Shown in pieces: positions 52,011-59,015 of a DNA stretch of 64,000 bases. The position numbers were made by a program, and so were the translations under genes. The notes below the pieces were generated by a model. The model ran no database searches and was not told where the DNA came from. It worked only from the letters and a program-made list of their open reading frames with translations. Each line of letters starts with the position of its first letter. Within the stretch, counting starts at the first letter, position 1. The DNA comes from a virus: positions 30,583 to 94,582 of IMG/VR virus record IMGVR_UViG_3300031576_000014. One strand, given 5' to 3'.

Positions 52011-52467
52011 AGAAAGGTTCCTGCTGCGCAGACGTCCTTCGACTTCAAGGGAGGATCCCGTGCGAAGACTGTCAACACCGAAAGGCGCCCCCGCCGACGC
52101 CGAAAGGGATGCTGCGAAGGTGGTTCGTCTGCCTCGACTGCGGCCTGAAGCAGTACATGGATCACGTCCCGATGCGCGAAGCGATCCCGATCCCAAAGTG
52201 CCAGCACGACCTCGACGCGCTCGACGAGTTCCTCCCGCGCCATCGCACGCCGTCTACCGCTACGTCGGCGAAGACGGGAAGCGCGGCCGCGTCCTCTCGC
52301 TCCACGCGACGATCGGGCAAGCGTTCGAGGCGTGCGACCTCGCGTCGGGCGCGTACATAGGCGAGGGTTCCGAATCCCGGGACGCGCGTGTCTCGCTCCG
52401 GACCGTGCGCGCCTACGTGCCCGGGTCCGTCGTCGGCGACGTCGTCGAGCTGCCCAGGCTCTATTAG
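52011..52467 (+). pseudogene. Plus-strand locus with coding-like segments in shifting frames
   Basis: Three phases each look protein-like over part of this stretch: MGRRKVPAAQTSFDF (from ATG 52011), then IPCEDCQHRK...MLRRWFVCLDCGLKQYMDH (about 52055-52250, with CxxC pairs), then SHAVYRYVGEDGKRGRVLSLH...VVELPRLY (about 52220-52467). The overlapping parts of each frame become Arg-rich shadow. It may be one zinc-containing gene with frameshifts or two overlapping genes; GTG 52060 has an AAGGGAGG upstream. It ends convergent with the MuF gene, stops overlapping. Confidence 0.4.
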
Positions 52468-54371
52468 CGCCGCTTGCCGAACCGCGAGAGCGGGATGGTG
52501 GTCATGCGAGGACGCGGGGGAGGCGATCCCTTCCGCTTCTCCGCGCGCCACCGCGCCGCGATCTCGCCCGCGTCCCGCCAGCGGAACTCCTTCGGGATCG
52601 GCCAGGCGACGCGGTGCGGGACGACGATCTCGCGGTCGTTCGGGCGCGCGGGCGGATGCTGCATCAGCCCGTACCAGGTCTCGAACGCCTGGGCGCTCGC
52701 GCGGATCTGCCCGTGAACCGCGTAGGAGTCAGAGTTGCCCGTATAGATGCCTTCTGCGGTGAAGTAACCCTCGGACGTTGAAAGGTCGAAGACATGCCCG
52801 GAAATCGAAGTGGGTTGAACGTCAACGAGGCGATCGAGTTGTACCGAACCGGAATGACGTTGTCCGAGGTGGCGGGCACTCTCGACATTCATCGCCGATA
52901 TGTTGCCGAGGAGATCGCGGCACGCGGCGAAACTCGATCGAACGCCGAAGCTCGACGACGACAGTTCGCCAATCGCGAGAACCATCCTCGCTATCGCGAA
53001 GGCATGCCTATCAACCACATCGCCCATTCGTACATGAAAGGCGAAGCGATCAAACGCATAGGCAAGCGCCTCGGGGTCTCCCAGACGCTCGTCACTCGGT
53101 GCCTGCTCGATGCAGGGATCACACCACGCTCTGGTTCTGAAACAAACCATGTCCGCGCACGTTCGCGGGCTGATGAGCCTGCCGCATTCGACACAAAAAT
53201 GAACATCATCGGTTGGGGCGAGGACCTGCTTCGCGGCTGGCTCAGTGAGCGCGGCGAATCTCCCCAACCGCAGCTCGCCGTGGGAACGAAGAACATCGAT
53301 GTCGCGATTCGACCCATCGCCGTGGAAGTCTTGATCTCGTCCTCGTCGCCGCTCACGGTTTCCCGTTGCAAGCAGCGACTCGAATACCTCGCCGATCGTG
53401 GGTGGACGACCTGTTACGTGCTCATCTCTCGGCGCACTCGTACGCTCATGCCCACCGTCGCAGACCAGCTCATCGCCAAGGCGAAGTTTGCCCGCAGCGA
53501 CCCATCCGCGCCTCGTGAGCATTGGGTGATTCGGGGTTGTGGTGAGATCGCGGCCCGCTTCGGTGACGAAACGCGCCGCCGGTCCCTCGTATGGCCGTCG
53601 AAAGACTGCCCTCACCACCGCCCCGGCAACCCTCGTCGAACCGACTAAACACGCTGTTCTGTCGTCGAACGTCGCGACGAGGATCTTGCACACGTCGCCG
53701 AGCTGCTGGTGCGCCTCCTTCGTCGCCTCGTAGTTGGCGCGGTTCGCTGATCCCATTATTTCTGTGCGCACGATGCGCTCGGCCCAGCTCGCCGGCGCCT
53801 GCTGGAGGAACGGGCTCCTGTCGACGATCGAGGTGCGCATCGAGTCCCACGACCGGCGCGAGACGAGCCCGAGCTGAAGCTCCTTCTCGAAGTGCTCGAC
53901 CACTCCCGCCCCGTAGCGCGCAAGCACGCCCTCGCCGCGCTTGCCCTTCTCGCCGACGAGGCTCCTGAGGATCGACCCCCGGCTCCCGTCGAGCGCTGCC
54001 TCGAGCATGCGCGCCTCGTCGAGCGCGAGCGGCTGCGCGCCGACTCCGAGGAACTCCCTGTCCCGCGCCGCCAGGTAGCGCGCCGTCGACTCCGCCGCCT
54101 TCTCCGCCGCCGCCGCACCGACGTCGAGGGCGGTCCCGCGCAGCCCGGTGTTGAGCTGAAAGACCACTTCCCGGACCTGCGCAAGCGTCGCCCGGAGCTG
54201 CGCCGCCGTGAAGCTCGCATCCCCCGGCCCCGCGACCGCCCGCGCCAGGCGGCTCTCCAGGTCGCGCTCCGCTCGCTCGAGCAGCTTGCGCGTCCTCCCT
54301 ACGCCCGTCTGCTCCGCGAACACGTGCGCCGCCCGCTTGTCCGCGGCGAGCACCTCGCGTGCGGTCTTCAC
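52464..54371 (-). CDS. MuF/SPP1 gp7-like minor head protein precursor with intein
   Basis: A 635-residue precursor; splicing would remove residues 241-546 and give a 329-residue head morphogenesis protein. The N-extein is helical, with SPFLQQAPASWAERIVRTEIMG typical of the MuF family. The conserved motif D-x-R-T...HG is split as DDRTA / SDSYAVHGQ. The gene follows the portal gene by GTGA overlap, the standard MuF position. A plus-strand gene lies wholly inside the intein region. Function: an internal head protein needed for assembly or genome ejection. Confidence 0.82.
   Translation of the reverse strand: MKTAREVLAADKRAAHVFAEQTGVGRTRKLLERAERDLESRLARAVAGPGDASFTAAQLRATLAQVREVVFQLNTGLRGTALDVGAAAAEKAAESTARYLAARDREFLGVGAQPLALDEARMLEAALDGSRGSILRSLVGEKGKRGEGVLARYGAGVVEHFEKELQLGLVSRRSWDSMRTSIVDRSPFLQQAPASWAERIVRTEIMGSANRANYEATKEAHQQLGDVCKILVATFDDRTACLVGSTRVAGAVVRAVFRRPYEGPAARFVTEAGRDLTTTPNHPMLTRRGWVAAGKLRLGDELVCDGGHERTSAPRDEHVTGRPPTIGEVFESLLATGNRERRRGRDQDFHGDGSNRDIDVLRSHGELRLGRFAALTEPAAKQVLAPTDDVHFCVECGRLISPRTCADMVCFRTRAWCDPCIEQAPSDERLGDPEALAYAFDRFAFHVRMGDVVDRHAFAIARMVLAIGELSSSSFGVRSSFAACRDLLGNISAMNVESARHLGQRHSGSVQLDRLVDVQPTSISGHVFDLSTSEGYFTAEGIYTGNSDSYAVHGQIRASAQAFETWYGLMQHPPARPNDREIVVPHRVAWPIPKEFRWRDAGEIAARWRAEKRKGSPPPRPRMTTIPLSRFGKRR
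52734..53651 (-). mobile_element. 306-residue intein in the MuF-like gene
   Basis: Block A begins with Cys241 (CLVGSTRV), block B is TTTPNHPMLTRRGW (TxxH), and block F is GHVFDLSTSEGYFTAEGIYTGN with Ser as the +1 residue. The penultimate His is replaced by Gly, a known tolerated variation. Between blocks B and F are about 180 residues, including a FCVECG...CDPC Cys cluster, without DOD-type LAGLIDADG motifs on this strand. Confidence 0.88.
52794..53648 (+). CDS. Antisense-encoded HTH plus PD-(D/E)XK-like homing endonuclease
   Basis: A 284-residue plus-strand gene wholly within the intein coding sequence. AAAGG lies 8 bases before the ATG; the TAA at 53646-53648 falls one codon inside the intein boundary. 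Residues 11-45 form an HTH (EAIELYRTGMTLSEVAGTL), 82-110 a second HTH (GEAIKRIGKRLGVSQTLV), and about 139-215 a nuclease-like core with NIDVA (Asp169) and AVEVL (Glu178), as in Vsr/DUF559-type enzymes. It probably drives homing of the intein. Both strands code, which is rare. Confidence 0.78.
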   Translation: MPGNRSGLNVNEAIELYRTGMTLSEVAGTLDIHRRYVAEEIAARGETRSNAEARRRQFANRENHPRYREGMPINHIAHSYMKGEAIKRIGKRLGVSQTLVTRCLLDAGITPRSGSETNHVRARSRADEPAAFDTKMNIIGWGEDLLRGWLSERGESPQPQLAVGTKNIDVAIRPIAVEVLISSSSPLTVSRCKQRLEYLADRGWTTCYVLISRRTRTLMPTVADQLIAKAKFARSDPSAPREHWVIRGCGEIAARFGDETRRRSLVWPSKDCPHHRPGNPRRTD

Positions 54372-56302
54372 GGCCCGGCCGCCCCTTCGTCTCCGCCATC
54401 GTCGCCCGGGAGAAAGGGCGGCTGCGGCTTGCCGAACGGCGGCTTGCCGAACGGTTTGCCCCCGCCCGGCTGCTCATCATCCTTTTCGACCTTGCCGGCC
54501 GCAGCCTCCTGCTGCTGCTGGAACATCGCCTGCTCCTTCGCCTTGTCCTTCGCCGTCTGCTTCTGGACGCGCTGCTGCTCCTGCGCAGGGTCCGCCCCGA
54601 ACGCTTCCGCCATCGCTTCCGTCGCCGTCTCGACGGAGAGGAACATCTTGCCCCCCGTCGCGAGCTGGAGCGTCGTCGCGATCTTGGCTTGGTCGTCCGG
54701 CGTCGGCGTGAAGTACGGCGGCCAGCGGAGATCGGTCTCGCCTCCCTCGCCCGGCTCCCGCTCAGTCTTCGTCGTGACCGTCTTCGGCTCGAGATCCTCC
54801 GGGGGCAGCTCCTCGGGCGGCGGTCGTGGTTGCAGAGGTTGTTCTTCCGGGAGACCGGTCTTCGGGTCAAGCGGAGGCTTCCCGGGCGGGACCGGCTGTT
54901 CCGATGGCAGCGGGGCGGGCTTCACCTCGATCTTCGGCGGAAGCGTCAGCTCCCACTTGCCGGGCTGCGTCTTCGGTACGCCAGCCTCGTCGAGCACCGG
55001 CTGCCCGAGGTCGTCCGTCACCTGGACCATCGGCACCCGCTTCATCTTCGCGCGCGCGACGTCCGTCGGCTCGTCGACGAGGTTCCTGATCGCGTGCCCG
55101 TACTGCTCGCGGAGCACGTCCGCGCTCCCGAGCATCGGGGCGAACATCGCCTTGACCGCGACGGAGGAGACGCCCTGCGCGGCGACCTCGTGCGGGTCCG
55201 GGACGATGCACTGCGCGGCTTCGAGGATGCTCCTCCGGTGCGTCTCGATCAGCTTGATCCCCACCTCGATCGACGTGCCCTGAAGCTCCATGTACTCGGC
55301 GTCGCCGCCCTCGCCCGTGACGATCGAGTTGTCGGACCCCTTCTTGACGCCCGACATGGCGATCTGCTCCGGGTCCATCTTGAGCTTGAGCGTCGGGTCG
55401 AGGTTGAGGATCGCCCCGCGCGCGACGACGCTCGCGAGCACGTCGAGCGTGTCGAACTGGTCGAGGAGCCCTGCGTAGTCGCCGACGCCGTCGATCTCGT
55501 CGCTCGGGCGGTTCTGGATCCAGTGGAGGTGGCAGACGCCGTCGTCGTGCCGGACGCTCTTCTTCGCGTCGACGATCCAGACCGGCGCCGTGTCCGGGTT
55601 CGGCTTGATCTCCGCCGGCTCGAAGACGATGTCCGCGTCCGGCGTCCAGTCCCGCCGAAACCAGTAGTAGATCTTGTCGAACGCCTTGCCGTTCCATTGC
55701 GGAATCCAGAACGGGTAGACCTCCGTCGCCCAGCGCGGCTTCAGGCGCAGGCGGTCGGCCCACTCGTGCACGTGCACGTTCTTCGCGTTGTGGACCTCGT
55801 AGCGCGGCCGGCCCTTGTAGAAGCACCAGTCGACGCAGACCGTGCCCGTCGCGCCCCCGAGGCTCCGGGCCTCGATCATCTTCAGGGGCAGGTTGCCGAC
55901 GCGCGCGATCGTCTGCTTGAAATCCTCGTTCTTCGGGTCCCCCTCGACGCGGATCTGCGGGAAGCGGTTCTCGCCGAAGAGCAGGTTCGTGAACGAGTCG
56001 ACGATGATCTTGCCGAGCGGGTACGCGGCGCTCGGGCGGCGGTCGCGGAGCGGGACGTAGTACGGCGCCTGCTCCTGGGAAAGGAGAGGCATCGTCGTCC
56101 GCGGACTGTAGAGACGCCCGTCGAAGTCGTACATCTTGCCGTCGTGCTGCCGGCAACGAAAGTACGACTCGAGAAGGTCGAGCGCGCGGTAGCGGTCACC
56201 CTGGAGGATCGAGAGGGGCCGGAACCCGTCGAACGGGGACTGCTCCGTCCCGGTCATGTTCCCGAACGAGAGCGCGTTGCGCGGGTCGACGACCATGGTC
56301 AT
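54368..56302 (-). CDS. Portal protein
   Basis: A 644-residue portal subunit. It has the SPP1-like order: an N-terminal wing (GKIIVDSFTNLLFGENRFP), a stem and crown region with HNAKNVHVHEWADR and WNGKAFDKIYYWFRRDW, and helical segments (GIKLIETHRRSILEAAQCI). The last 120 residues are Pro/Gln/Glu-rich and end with repeated KPFGKPPFGKPQPPF. It is followed by the MuF-like gene with a GTGA overlap. The terminase expected upstream is not present to the right edge. Confidence 0.85.
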   Translation of the reverse strand: MTMVVDPRNALSFGNMTGTEQSPFDGFRPLSILQGDRYRALDLLESYFRCRQHDGKMYDFDGRLYSPRTTMPLLSQEQAPYYVPLRDRRPSAAYPLGKIIVDSFTNLLFGENRFPQIRVEGDPKNEDFKQTIARVGNLPLKMIEARSLGGATGTVCVDWCFYKGRPRYEVHNAKNVHVHEWADRLRLKPRWATEVYPFWIPQWNGKAFDKIYYWFRRDWTPDADIVFEPAEIKPNPDTAPVWIVDAKKSVRHDDGVCHLHWIQNRPSDEIDGVGDYAGLLDQFDTLDVLASVVARGAILNLDPTLKLKMDPEQIAMSGVKKGSDNSIVTGEGGDAEYMELQGTSIEVGIKLIETHRRSILEAAQCIVPDPHEVAAQGVSSVAVKAMFAPMLGSADVLREQYGHAIRNLVDEPTDVARAKMKRVPMVQVTDDLGQPVLDEAGVPKTQPGKWELTLPPKIEVKPAPLPSEQPVPPGKPPLDPKTGLPEEQPLQPRPPPEELPPEDLEPKTVTTKTEREPGEGGETDLRWPPYFTPTPDDQAKIATTLQLATGGKMFLSVETATEAMAEAFGADPAQEQQRVQKQTAKDKAKEQAMFQQQQEAAAGKVEKDDEQPGGGKPFGKPPFGKPQPPFLPGDDGGDEGAAGP

Positions 56303-56305
56303 CGA

Positions 56306-56551
56306 TCAGCCGGCCTTCTTGCGCGCGCGCGCGACGCGGTCTGCGCGGCTTCCCCGCAGCAGGACGGGCGGGTCCGGGCGCTTTGGCTCTTCGCGGAACT
56401 CCTGCCGGACAGGCATCCCGCGCCCGCGCTCCGTGACACCTACGAAGTCGACCGCTTCCTCCGGCTCCGGTTTCCTTTCCCCGCGCACGCGCTCGCCGAG
56501 GCGGATCAAGAGATCACCGGCGAGCGATCGGACGTGGTCGCGGAGCCGCAT
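56306..56551 (-). CDS. Small basic hypothetical protein
   Basis: An 81-residue protein directly upstream of the portal gene (MRLRDHVRSLAGDLLIRLGER... SRADRVARARKKAG). An amphipathic N-terminal helix and basic C-terminus are visible. Function unknown. Confidence 0.45.
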   Translation of the reverse strand: MRLRDHVRSLAGDLLIRLGERVRGERKPEPEEAVDFVGVTERGRGMPVRQEFREEPKRPDPPVLLRGSRADRVARARKKAG

Positions 56552-56604
56552 GCGGACACTCTACAGGCGCCGCGGGCGACGGTCACGGACCGCGGACGCG
56601 CGCG

Positions 56605-56907
56605 TCACGCGTTCTTCTTCGCCTTCTTCGTCTTCGCCGGAACCTGCTCGTCGTCCGCCGCCGCATCGATCGGCGATGGCGCCGACCCCGCACAGACCGG
56701 GGAGGAGTCGATCGGGGCTTCCCAAGGGAGCCCGGTCTCCGGATCTCCCCCGGCGAAGACGCGCGCGCCGCAACACTTCGTGAGCGCGAGGTCCGAGGAC
56801 CTCACCCGCTGGGAAGTCGTGAAGGTTTCGAGCTGCTCCGCCGTCGGCGGCGTTTGCGTCTCCGCCAGCTGGTGCCACTTGTCTCCGTGCTTCGCCCAAC
56901 CGCTCAT
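56605..56907 (-). CDS. Small hypothetical protein
   Basis: A 100-residue protein (MSGWAKHGDKWHQLAETQTPP... TKCCGARVFAGGD... TKKAKKNA) with a CC pair and a Lys-rich tail. No family recognised. Confidence 0.45.
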   Translation of the reverse strand: MSGWAKHGDKWHQLAETQTPPTAEQLETFTTSQRVRSSDLALTKCCGARVFAGGDPETGLPWEAPIDSSPVCAGSAPSPIDAAADDEQVPAKTKKAKKNA

Positions 56908-56917
56908 CCTGTCCTCC

Positions 56918-57304
56918 CTACGGAGCCGCTTCGATTGTGAAGAAGCCCGTCGAATCGCCGCGGGCCCAGAAGAAGTCCTGGTATTTGTCCGCTTTGCAGA
57001 GAAAGACCTTCACCTGAGACCCGAACTGGGGGCTCGTGAAATATCCTGCGACGAACCACTTCTGAGCCTGCTGCGCGCTGGCTGTCCGCTGAACGATGAT
57101 CGCGAATGTGCCTGTTGCGGGTTTGCCTGCCGGATCGCTTGCCCCGACCGTGAGCAGCTGAGATGCGTCCGTGTCCGAGAGATGATGCACCGCACCTTCC
57201 GGAGTGATGTCGCGCGCATCCCATCCGGCCGCAGCGTTTCCGGCGAAGACGGTGGCGATCTGTCCGGAGCCGAACGCGAGAAACGATCCGATTGCAACAG
57301 TCAT
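56918..57304 (-). CDS. Small virion-type hypothetical protein
   Basis: A 128-residue beta-rich protein (MTVAIGSFLAFGSGQIATVF... KWFVAGYFTSPQFGSQVKVFL), with a composition like other virion proteins. It lies behind the large fibre-like gene. Function unknown. Confidence 0.45.
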   Translation of the reverse strand: MTVAIGSFLAFGSGQIATVFAGNAAAGWDARDITPEGAVHHLSDTDASQLLTVGASDPAGKPATGTFAIIVQRTASAQQAQKWFVAGYFTSPQFGSQVKVFLCKADKYQDFFWARGDSTGFFTIEAAP

Positions 57305-57317
57305 GATGATCCTCCTC

Positions 57318-59015
57318 CTACACGAGCGTGGTGCGAGCCTTGTAGATGCGAGCGTTGTGCGTCATGTCGTGAGCGTTGTTCGCGTGCCCGCCAGCAGCGA
57401 TCGTGCCCGTGATGTTCGTCCAAGTCAGCGTGCGCGCGGCAGGAGCGACCGACCACGTGCCCGTCGCCGTGTCGAACGCCTCGACAGAGGAGCGCCCGCC
57501 AAGCATCGCGTTCGGCACCGCCGCTGCGCCCGCGATGTAAAGCTTCGTGCCGTCCGCATACGTGAATGTTGCGTCGTCCTCGCCCTGAACACCGACTGTC
57601 GTCGCGACAGCCGAAGCTCCCCAAAGACCAGAGAGCCCGTACAGGAAGCTCTGCTGACGAGCCGCCCCGAAAGACGCGACGATGATCCCGCCTATCGAGA
57701 GCCCGAGGGCCGGCCAGTCCATGTGCCCGCTGTCCTCGGTGAGGAACGATCCTGTGCGGACGACGAGAACAAAAGTTCCCTGAAACAAAGTTCCCGTCAC
57801 GGCTGCTGCGCCGTCGCCCTCGGCGACGAACGCCGGTTGCGTTCCGGTTCCCCGCACAAGGCACGCGTCGAACTGGTTGGCGTACGTGTTGCCCGCGTTC
57901 TGGCAAGAGAATTGGAAGCCAGTCGTCGAGGATGGCTCAATGTTCGTCGCGGTGAAGAACGCCCACGTGTTTGCCGTTCCCTTCCCCTCTGCCGAGAGGA
58001 TCAGCCTTCCGCCGCCCGCGTCTTTGTCGATCCAACGGCAGTTGGCGAAGACCAGCGAACATGCGGAGTGCAAGAGCTGGGACTCGGAGAAGGCCCCGCG
58101 TCCGAGGATCGACAGGTCTAGATCTTCGAACTGCACGGTAGGCTGGTTCGGGTAGAGGCCGCCGTTCGCCCGGACACGGATGAAGTCGACGTACAACACG
58201 CCCGGCGCGGTGAGGATCTCGTACGGGTCGGGCGCGGCCGGGGTCACGTACGTGTTGGCGAGCACGGGGAAGTTCGGGATGACCGGCTCGCTGACGCGGA
58301 TCGTCGTGGCGCCCGGGACCGTCGCGACGTAAAAGCGCGCGCCCGTGCGCGCGCCCGACGTGATGCGCACGCGCAGACCGAGATCGGTCGCGTCGAAGGC
58401 GGCGCCGGCGTCCGTCAGAAGCCACGGCGTGTTCGTCGAACGCACGCGCACCGTGACCGCCGAGAGGGCTCCAGTTTTCTTCTGGGTCATCGCGGGCCCG
58501 ATGATCCGGACCTTGACCTGCGTCGTCGGCACCCGCTGCTCGATGAAAATGTCTGCTCGCACCGGGTCGGCCTTCGGCGGAAGCGAGATGAACGCGACGA
58601 CCGTGCTCGCCGTGATCGGCTGCGCGCCGAGCCGGTAGAAAAGCTCCGCGTCCGTGAGCAGCGGCGTCCCGGCGGTCAGCCCGTCGTTGAGGTCGCTCGC
58701 GAGCTTCGTCGTGTTCAACCCGTCGACGAACCACGCCGGCTGCGCGCCCCAGCCCGGGTTCGGCGCGAGCTGGTCGCGGAAGGCTATGTCAGCCCCGAGA
58801 TCGACTCCCGGGATCTGCCCCTTGCGCTCCTTCGCGAGGGCGATCGCCGCCGTCGCCGCCGCGTCGCCGTAGACGAGCGGGAGCAGCCGCGCGCCCGCCT
58901 GCCGGAGCCGGGCGACGTCGTCCGTGACCTCGTCGACCGTGCGGCCCTTCCGGAACGTCGCGGTCCCGGAGGGGGTCGCGATCGTCACGTCGTTCTCGAG
59001 CACGTACTTGCCCAT
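57318..59015 (-). CDS. Large fibre- or tailspike-like virion protein
   Basis: A 565-residue protein. The N-terminal 100 residues (MGKYVLENDVTIATPSGTATF; DDVARLRQAGARLLPLVYG) look like an assembly domain. The centre is beta-rich with short repeats of Gly/Ala/Thr (SGARTGARFYVATVPGATTI; GGRLILSAEGKGTANTW) like a right-handed beta-helix. No enzyme residues are obvious. Its location with other receptor-type genes suggests a fibre or a head fibre. Confidence 0.5.
   Translation of the reverse strand: MGKYVLENDVTIATPSGTATFRKGRTVDEVTDDVARLRQAGARLLPLVYGDAAATAAIALAKERKGQIPGVDLGADIAFRDQLAPNPGWGAQPAWFVDGLNTTKLASDLNDGLTAGTPLLTDAELFYRLGAQPITASTVVAFISLPPKADPVRADIFIEQRVPTTQVKVRIIGPAMTQKKTGALSAVTVRVRSTNTPWLLTDAGAAFDATDLGLRVRITSGARTGARFYVATVPGATTIRVSEPVIPNFPVLANTYVTPAAPDPYEILTAPGVLYVDFIRVRANGGLYPNQPTVQFEDLDLSILGRGAFSESQLLHSACSLVFANCRWIDKDAGGGRLILSAEGKGTANTWAFFTATNIEPSSTTGFQFSCQNAGNTYANQFDACLVRGTGTQPAFVAEGDGAAAVTGTLFQGTFVLVVRTGSFLTEDSGHMDWPALGLSIGGIIVASFGAARQQSFLYGLSGLWGASAVATTVGVQGEDDATFTYADGTKLYIAGAAAVPNAMLGGRSSVEAFDTATGTWSVAPAARTLTWTNITGTIAAGGHANNAHDMTHNARIYKARTTLV

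Follow-up and report, generated by a model that had tools for sequence, protein, structure and literature searches.

A mobile intein in a phage head gene appears to carry its homing-type endonuclease not as a fused domain but in a gene of its own on the opposite strand, nested codon on codon in the intein, and we hold this reading of the locus with high confidence. The locus lies in the window (the whole 64,000-nucleotide stretch analysed here, taken from a virus record of 94.6 kb), and the reading is drawn from sequence comparison: two open frames and their register, a constraint that switches between strands, a start codon with its Shine-Dalgarno sequence, nuclease homology with a predicted fold, and patchy occupancy of several insertion sites. 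The earlier note treated the arrangement as an observation at a single locus; it is real in the window, but it is not a one-off, and the class occurs in hundreds of phage sequences. It is likely that these form a widespread and so far unrecognised class of mobile inteins, one where the nuclease is coded codon-on-codon opposite the intein, the host frame is its passive shadow, the codons of block F double as ribosome binding site and start, and the origin was probably a free-standing EDxHD gene beside MuF, like that of phage P1068, which came to be nested antisense in a mini-intein.

The host of the intein is a MuF-like head gene on the minus strand (54371-52464; 635 codons, GTG start at 54371), whose product has weak matches to PHROG head morphogenesis families at about residues 195-247. 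By its translation, the N-extein (53652-54371) ends with ...ATFDDRTA at the intein border and the C-extein occupies 52464-52733. Between them lies an intein of 306 residues (52734-53651, minus strand), which runs from Cys1 to Asn306 with Ser as the +1 residue and is supported by Pfam and TIGR matches, by the Hint ends of an AlphaFold2 model and by a family alignment (A5). The match to Pfam Intein_splicing has an E-value of 1e-5, which is below the curated cut-off, and that to TIGR01445 (intein_Nterm) has 7e-5. The match of the head protein family phrog_15127 to the window protein falls mainly within the intein (residues 239-363), which suggests that intein sequence has been included in this family.

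The splicing domains are found at the two ends of the intein. The Hint N-terminal region (residues 1-67; 53451-53651) contains blocks A and B (TPNHP) and is modelled with pLDDT mostly of 86-96, while the C-terminal region (residues 269-306; 52734-52847) contains blocks F (GHVFDL) and G with pLDDT of 85-95, so that the Hint ends together span 85-96. A zone with the sense motif DFHGDG (residues 81-128; 53268-53411; pLDDT about 84) faces the active site of the nuclease, and the linker (residues 130-268; 52848-53264), the sense read-through of the antisense gene, falls to a pLDDT of about 30. The catalytic Cys1 is present and invariant across the family alignment, and the TxxH motif of block B is found as TPNH at residues 39-42, in which T39, N41 and H42 are invariant. 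Asn306 is followed by Ser, in agreement with the Asn plus Cys/Ser/Thr requirement. The penultimate His of block G is absent, and the window intein ends in Gly-Asn (Gly305) and not in the usual His-Asn; this position varies in the family (H, S, R or G). Some active inteins lack the penultimate His, so Gly305 is not decisive against an intein.

The antisense gene (52794-53648, plus strand) consists of 284 codons, begins with ATG, is preceded by an in-frame TGA (52779-52781) and ends with a TAA that faces intein residue 2, and therefore lies wholly within the intein. The extents given in the earlier note for the intein and for this open frame turned out to be exact, as did its placement of the stop near the intein edge. 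The sequence preceding the ATG is AAAGGTCGAAGAC, and the translation start (52781-52796, plus strand) comprises a Shine-Dalgarno-like AAAGGT located 7 nt upstream of the ATG. In the window, the block F His codon read on the other strand gives the ATG, and the Asp-Leu codons face the Shine-Dalgarno sequence. The same holds in the family, where the start complements the block F His (GHVYNL), the Shine-Dalgarno sequence complements the next Asn/Asp-Leu codons, and the consensus of the latter is GAGGT at -12 to -8. The codon usage of block F is strongly biased: its His codon is CAT in 46 of 59 inteins, versus 58 of the 215 His codons at other places in the Hint ends (p 2e-12), and its Leu codon is CTC in 46 of 58 (p 2e-9). 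In Salmonella phage TS6, the Leu codon opposite the antisense Shine-Dalgarno sequence is CTA, which creates a stop in the antisense frame immediately upstream of the ATG and thus confirms the required gene start. A promoter scan recognised no plus-strand promoter, and the upstream logo of the family had no conserved promoter apart from the Shine-Dalgarno sequence and start.

Since the first position of a sense codon faces the third of an antisense codon, only the sense codons TTA and CTA (Leu) and TCA (Ser) can stop the antisense frame. These three make up 0.07% of 1481 codons in sampled head genes, and the chance that 284 antisense codons stay open in the GC-rich window genome is about 0.83, so openness by itself is no proof, and the length of the frame was discarded as stand-alone evidence for the gene. 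Very long open frames also occur on the plus strand over the portal and head genes (for example 54359-57412); such frames are what GC-rich codon usage leads one to expect, and they are not to be taken for genes.

The strand under selection was determined from the family. All of 71 distinct inteins have both frames open, with no interruption or phase shift in any sense frame. Antisense TTA, CTA and TCA codons were absent (0 versus about 547 expected) among 1552 Leu and 1119 Ser antisense codons, and the set without such blocking codons includes inteins of 41-47% GC. Substitutions were analysed in 16 independent pairs of family inteins. In the linker, the change at sense positions 1/2/3 is 0.40/0.15/0.23, and sense position 1, the antisense wobble, is the freest in all 16 pairs (p 3e-22), which is not the sense-only third-position pattern that the earlier note had named as counting against it. 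In the Hint ends position 3 is the freest, with 0.14/0.05/0.22 for Hint N and 0.12/0.05/0.23 for Hint C. Nei-Gojobori dN/dS values, which ignore the overlap and are approximate, were 0.96 in sense and 0.28 in antisense for the linker, 0.26 and 0.66 for Hint N, 0.19 and 0.72 for Hint C, and 0.68 and 0.28 for the FHGD zone, which has low rates at all codon positions. The linker is neutral in sense and constrained in antisense, the Hint ends are constrained in sense, and the direction reverses cleanly. Hence the suggestion of the earlier note that both strands are constrained applies to the Hint ends in sense, to the linker in antisense and, with signs of both, to the FHGD zone, but not to the whole overlap; strict double constraint is mostly confined to the FHGD zone and to the antisense tail where it overlies the Hint ends. 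Pairs without the GGxWH motif of the nuclease also show antisense constraint. No close relative of the exact window intein was found, so the constraint is inferred from the family and not from the window copy. A domain search of the sense linker found no endonuclease domain between the Hint halves, and an in-frame sense endonuclease was ruled out, the linker having no domain, being disordered and evolving neutrally in sense.

The antisense protein contains two helix-turn-helix (HTH) modules, at residues 10-43 and 73-106, and a nuclease core at about residues 140-250 (E143, D169, E178). Pfam HTH_23 matched above its cut-off and a second HTH match covered residues 74-102, in line with the two units described in the earlier note. 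The AlphaFold2 model of the window protein (pLDDT 84.8) shows two HTH units of three helices each and an alpha-beta nuclease core, for which Foldseek gave 3r3p, the catalytic domain of I-Bth0305I, as the best relevant PDB fold (probability 0.99). Profile searches of the PDB matched 3hrl (a DUF559 structure; 2e-5), 3r3p (8e-4) and the two-HTH protein 2lvs (2e-8), while phmmer with the single sequence P0002 returned noise only. Among 63 family members, MTES_1575 was matched by 52, HTH_23 by 42 and DUF559 by 17, and N167, D169 and E178 show no variation across 63 homologues. By these profiles and the predicted fold, the nuclease belongs to the EDxHD/Vsr/DUF559 branch of the PD-(D/E)XK fold; the PD-(D/E)XK-like core with Asp169 and Glu178 proposed earlier was thus right in its residues and too generic in its class. 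The GGxWH motif is present in 30 of 63 members and absent in 33, including the window protein, which has E143, D169 and E178, so its catalytic competence is uncertain. The HTH repeats of a BcepSauron endonuclease (MK552141.1, 640-1611) match the HTH modules of the antisense family, and a relative of this enzyme is named GIY-YIG homing endonuclease; such DNA-binding modules appear, from sequence similarity, to be common to different nuclease types.

Searching with tblastn, the antisense protein matched 110 phage records (Salmonella, Gordonia, Pseudomonas, Escherichia, Edwardsiella, Haemophilus and others), and among the matches listed the homologue lies opposite a head gene wherever the gene is annotated. 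A scan of viral contigs with an alignment of 12 antisense homologues recovered 396 relatives. The best 80 of these, together with the window and the 11 first-fetched phages, all have the nuclease opposite the intein in the same register, as do 8 bacterial contigs, which are probably prophages. Each of the 91 intein loci in the first collection has a homologous ORF on the opposite strand in this register. Single-protein back-translation scans (P0002 against viral contigs and one homologue against genome contigs) gave no matches, whereas family alignments recovered relatives in both viral and genome contigs. When inteins were picked by similarity of the splicing strand alone, the antisense gene was present in 80 of 80, and the two flagged antisense stops were located at gene ends; the comparison of inteins with and without the gene proposed in the earlier note thus yielded no same-type intein without it among the 80. 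Apparent antisense stops in three loci (L106, L172 and L175) are likewise at or beyond the gene ends and are not interruptions, and a small annotated ORF opposite the intein of Salmonella phage sam is in a different frame and is not the antisense gene. The insertion sites include a MuF HPN|CxC motif, a MuF DRT|C motif, which is also occupied in Escherichia phage Ec1-ASingh, and a dCMP-deaminase-like gene (in Virus Rctr197k and at locus L077). The Rctr197k gene (KX853510.1, 616-1968) is labelled "head morphogenesis protein", while its sequence resembles that of a dCMP deaminase (PCVAC, HSEENA), into which an intein of this type is inserted; the label probably stems from the intein that it has in common with the head genes. 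L077 seems to be a similar case, with a deaminase-like gene and this type of intein. The carriers include the well-studied Salmonella Jerseyvirus and Gordonia phages, and the antisense enzyme is unannotated in every intein record checked.

Occupancy varies between close relatives. In Guernseyvirinae, the same MuF codon is empty in St162 and occupied in SaI_NFG_5577, whose exteins are 93% identical. Pantoea AH01 and Salmonella phage SaI_NFG_5577 have intein DNA 86% alike and exteins 76% alike. For Gordonia Fosterous and Angelicage the exteins are 97% alike and the inteins 89%, and for ViaConlectus, at the same site, the values are 73% and 53%. The patchy occupancy, the several insertion sites and an intein identity above that of the exteins point to mobility. 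Besides, Acinetobacter phage P1068 (OQ689089.1, 1501-2394; 37% GC genome) has a free-standing nuclease homologue (WHB31326.1), the independent antisense homologue whose absence was to count against the earlier note. It is convergent with an intein-less MuF gene with an overlap of 7 nt, and stops occur throughout its opposite frames. This is an independent version of the gene and plausibly represents the ancestor state; it is possible that it is a homing gene adjoining its own target.

Three other explanations were weighed. The antisense frame might be a by-product of GC-rich codon usage, its conservation mirroring that of the sense strand through the codon-on-codon register. The high chance of openness in the window genome is in favour of this, and the sense motifs FHGD and TPNHP do mirror antisense VAVEV and RVIRG, but the substitution pattern already refutes it, the linker being sense-neutral and, in all 16 pairs, most variable at the antisense wobble; antisense frames that stay open at 41-47% GC, the nuclease and HTH profile matches and the free-standing homologue in the 37% GC phage P1068 speak against it too, and we consider it next to impossible. 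It is very improbable, though not to the same degree, that the antisense gene alone is functional in an intein that no longer splices, with the head gene broken or bypassed. A neutral, disordered sense linker and the penultimate Gly of the window copy would suit such a dead intein, yet the Hint ends are under sense constraint (dN/dS 0.26 and 0.19), which argues for protein splicing, the sense frames are uninterrupted and in phase in 71 inteins, and MuF, a structural gene, has complete exteins.

A real antisense protein with a role other than homing, such as a nuclease against competitors or a DNA-binding regulator where the catalytic His has been lost, is a somewhat better candidate than these two, while still unlikely. 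GGxWH is missing in 33 of 63 members including the window, and HTH modules are typical of regulators too; against this, a pure regulator would not need the invariant N167, D169 and E178, and the patchy occupancy, several insertion sites and higher intein than extein identity suggest mobility. Cutting of empty competitors and homing are compatible and not mutually exclusive.

The claim of a homing endonuclease-like gene antisense inside the intein, with its own start and ribosome binding site, is borne out by the family constraint and by the codon bias at the start and Shine-Dalgarno sequence. For the preferred reading, a mobile intein with its nuclease gene on the other strand, we infer plus-strand transcription, splicing, cleavage and homing as follows. 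Sense translation of the MuF-like head gene would give a precursor, in which the two Hint ends would fold together, excise the intein and restore the head protein; the excised intein would include the central stretch, which needs only to stay open. A plus-strand transcript would give the antisense protein through its own Shine-Dalgarno sequence and start, made of block F codons. In a co-infecting phage, its HTH modules may then bind the MuF allele that lacks the intein, the EDxHD/Vsr-type domain may cut this empty allele, and repair would copy the intein in.

The usual view of intein homing endonucleases is that they are in-frame domains. The present inteins resemble in-frame mobile inteins (LAGLIDADG or HNH) in that Hint ends flank a central endonuclease segment at a conserved phage gene site and occupied and empty alleles coexist, while here the endonuclease is on the other strand, has its own start, lies outside the spliced polypeptide and leaves the sense linker neutral. 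EDxHD/Vsr-like homing endonucleases such as I-Bth0305I (3r3p; PMC3943268) share the nuclease fold and motif, separate DNA-binding modules and occurrence in phages. Known members of this family, whose first report PMC12350094 credits to Dassa et al. 2009, stand free, occur in introns (PMC3943268, PMC12350094) or are associated with split inteins, unlike the present enzymes, which are antisense in a contiguous intein, have two HTH modules and lack the WH motif in half of members. In the ShiLan domain (PMC11855218), an HNH endonuclease of homing type is likewise concealed, out of frame, in a phage methylase gene within an insertion that stays open in sense, but it is on the same strand, without recognised Hint/intein domains and without a detectable ribosome binding site (PMC11855218); the window gene, with its opposite strand, EDxHD type and intein domains, is not of the ShiLan type. 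Complementary-strand endonuclease genes of group I introns (Porphyra S1506, PMC2585584) are also antisense within a mobile element, while there removal occurs at the RNA level, the host-strand codons are unconstrained and the enzyme is of the His-Cys box type (PMC2585584). The same intein was already reported for Jerseyvirus (PMC8425127), and the family member of Escherichia phage Snoke (MK931441) is annotated as an intein-containing capsid morphogenesis protein, without the antisense gene. A literature search found no published antisense endonuclease in an intein; a preprint on Actinobacteriophage inteins of non-canonical architecture (10.1101/2025.01.02.630785), outside that comparison, may bear on priority.

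In conclusion, the evidence suggests that this arrangement is a widespread, apparently undescribed kind of mobile intein. Unlike the in-frame view of intein endonucleases, hundreds of phage sequences carry the enzyme on the other strand, and the shared intein explains annotation errors, such as a deaminase named as head protein. The overlap is a natural example of long, complete antisense coding in which the handover of selection from strand to strand can be measured. Coding on the opposite strand separates expression of the nuclease from that of the host protein, which is impossible in a fused intein.
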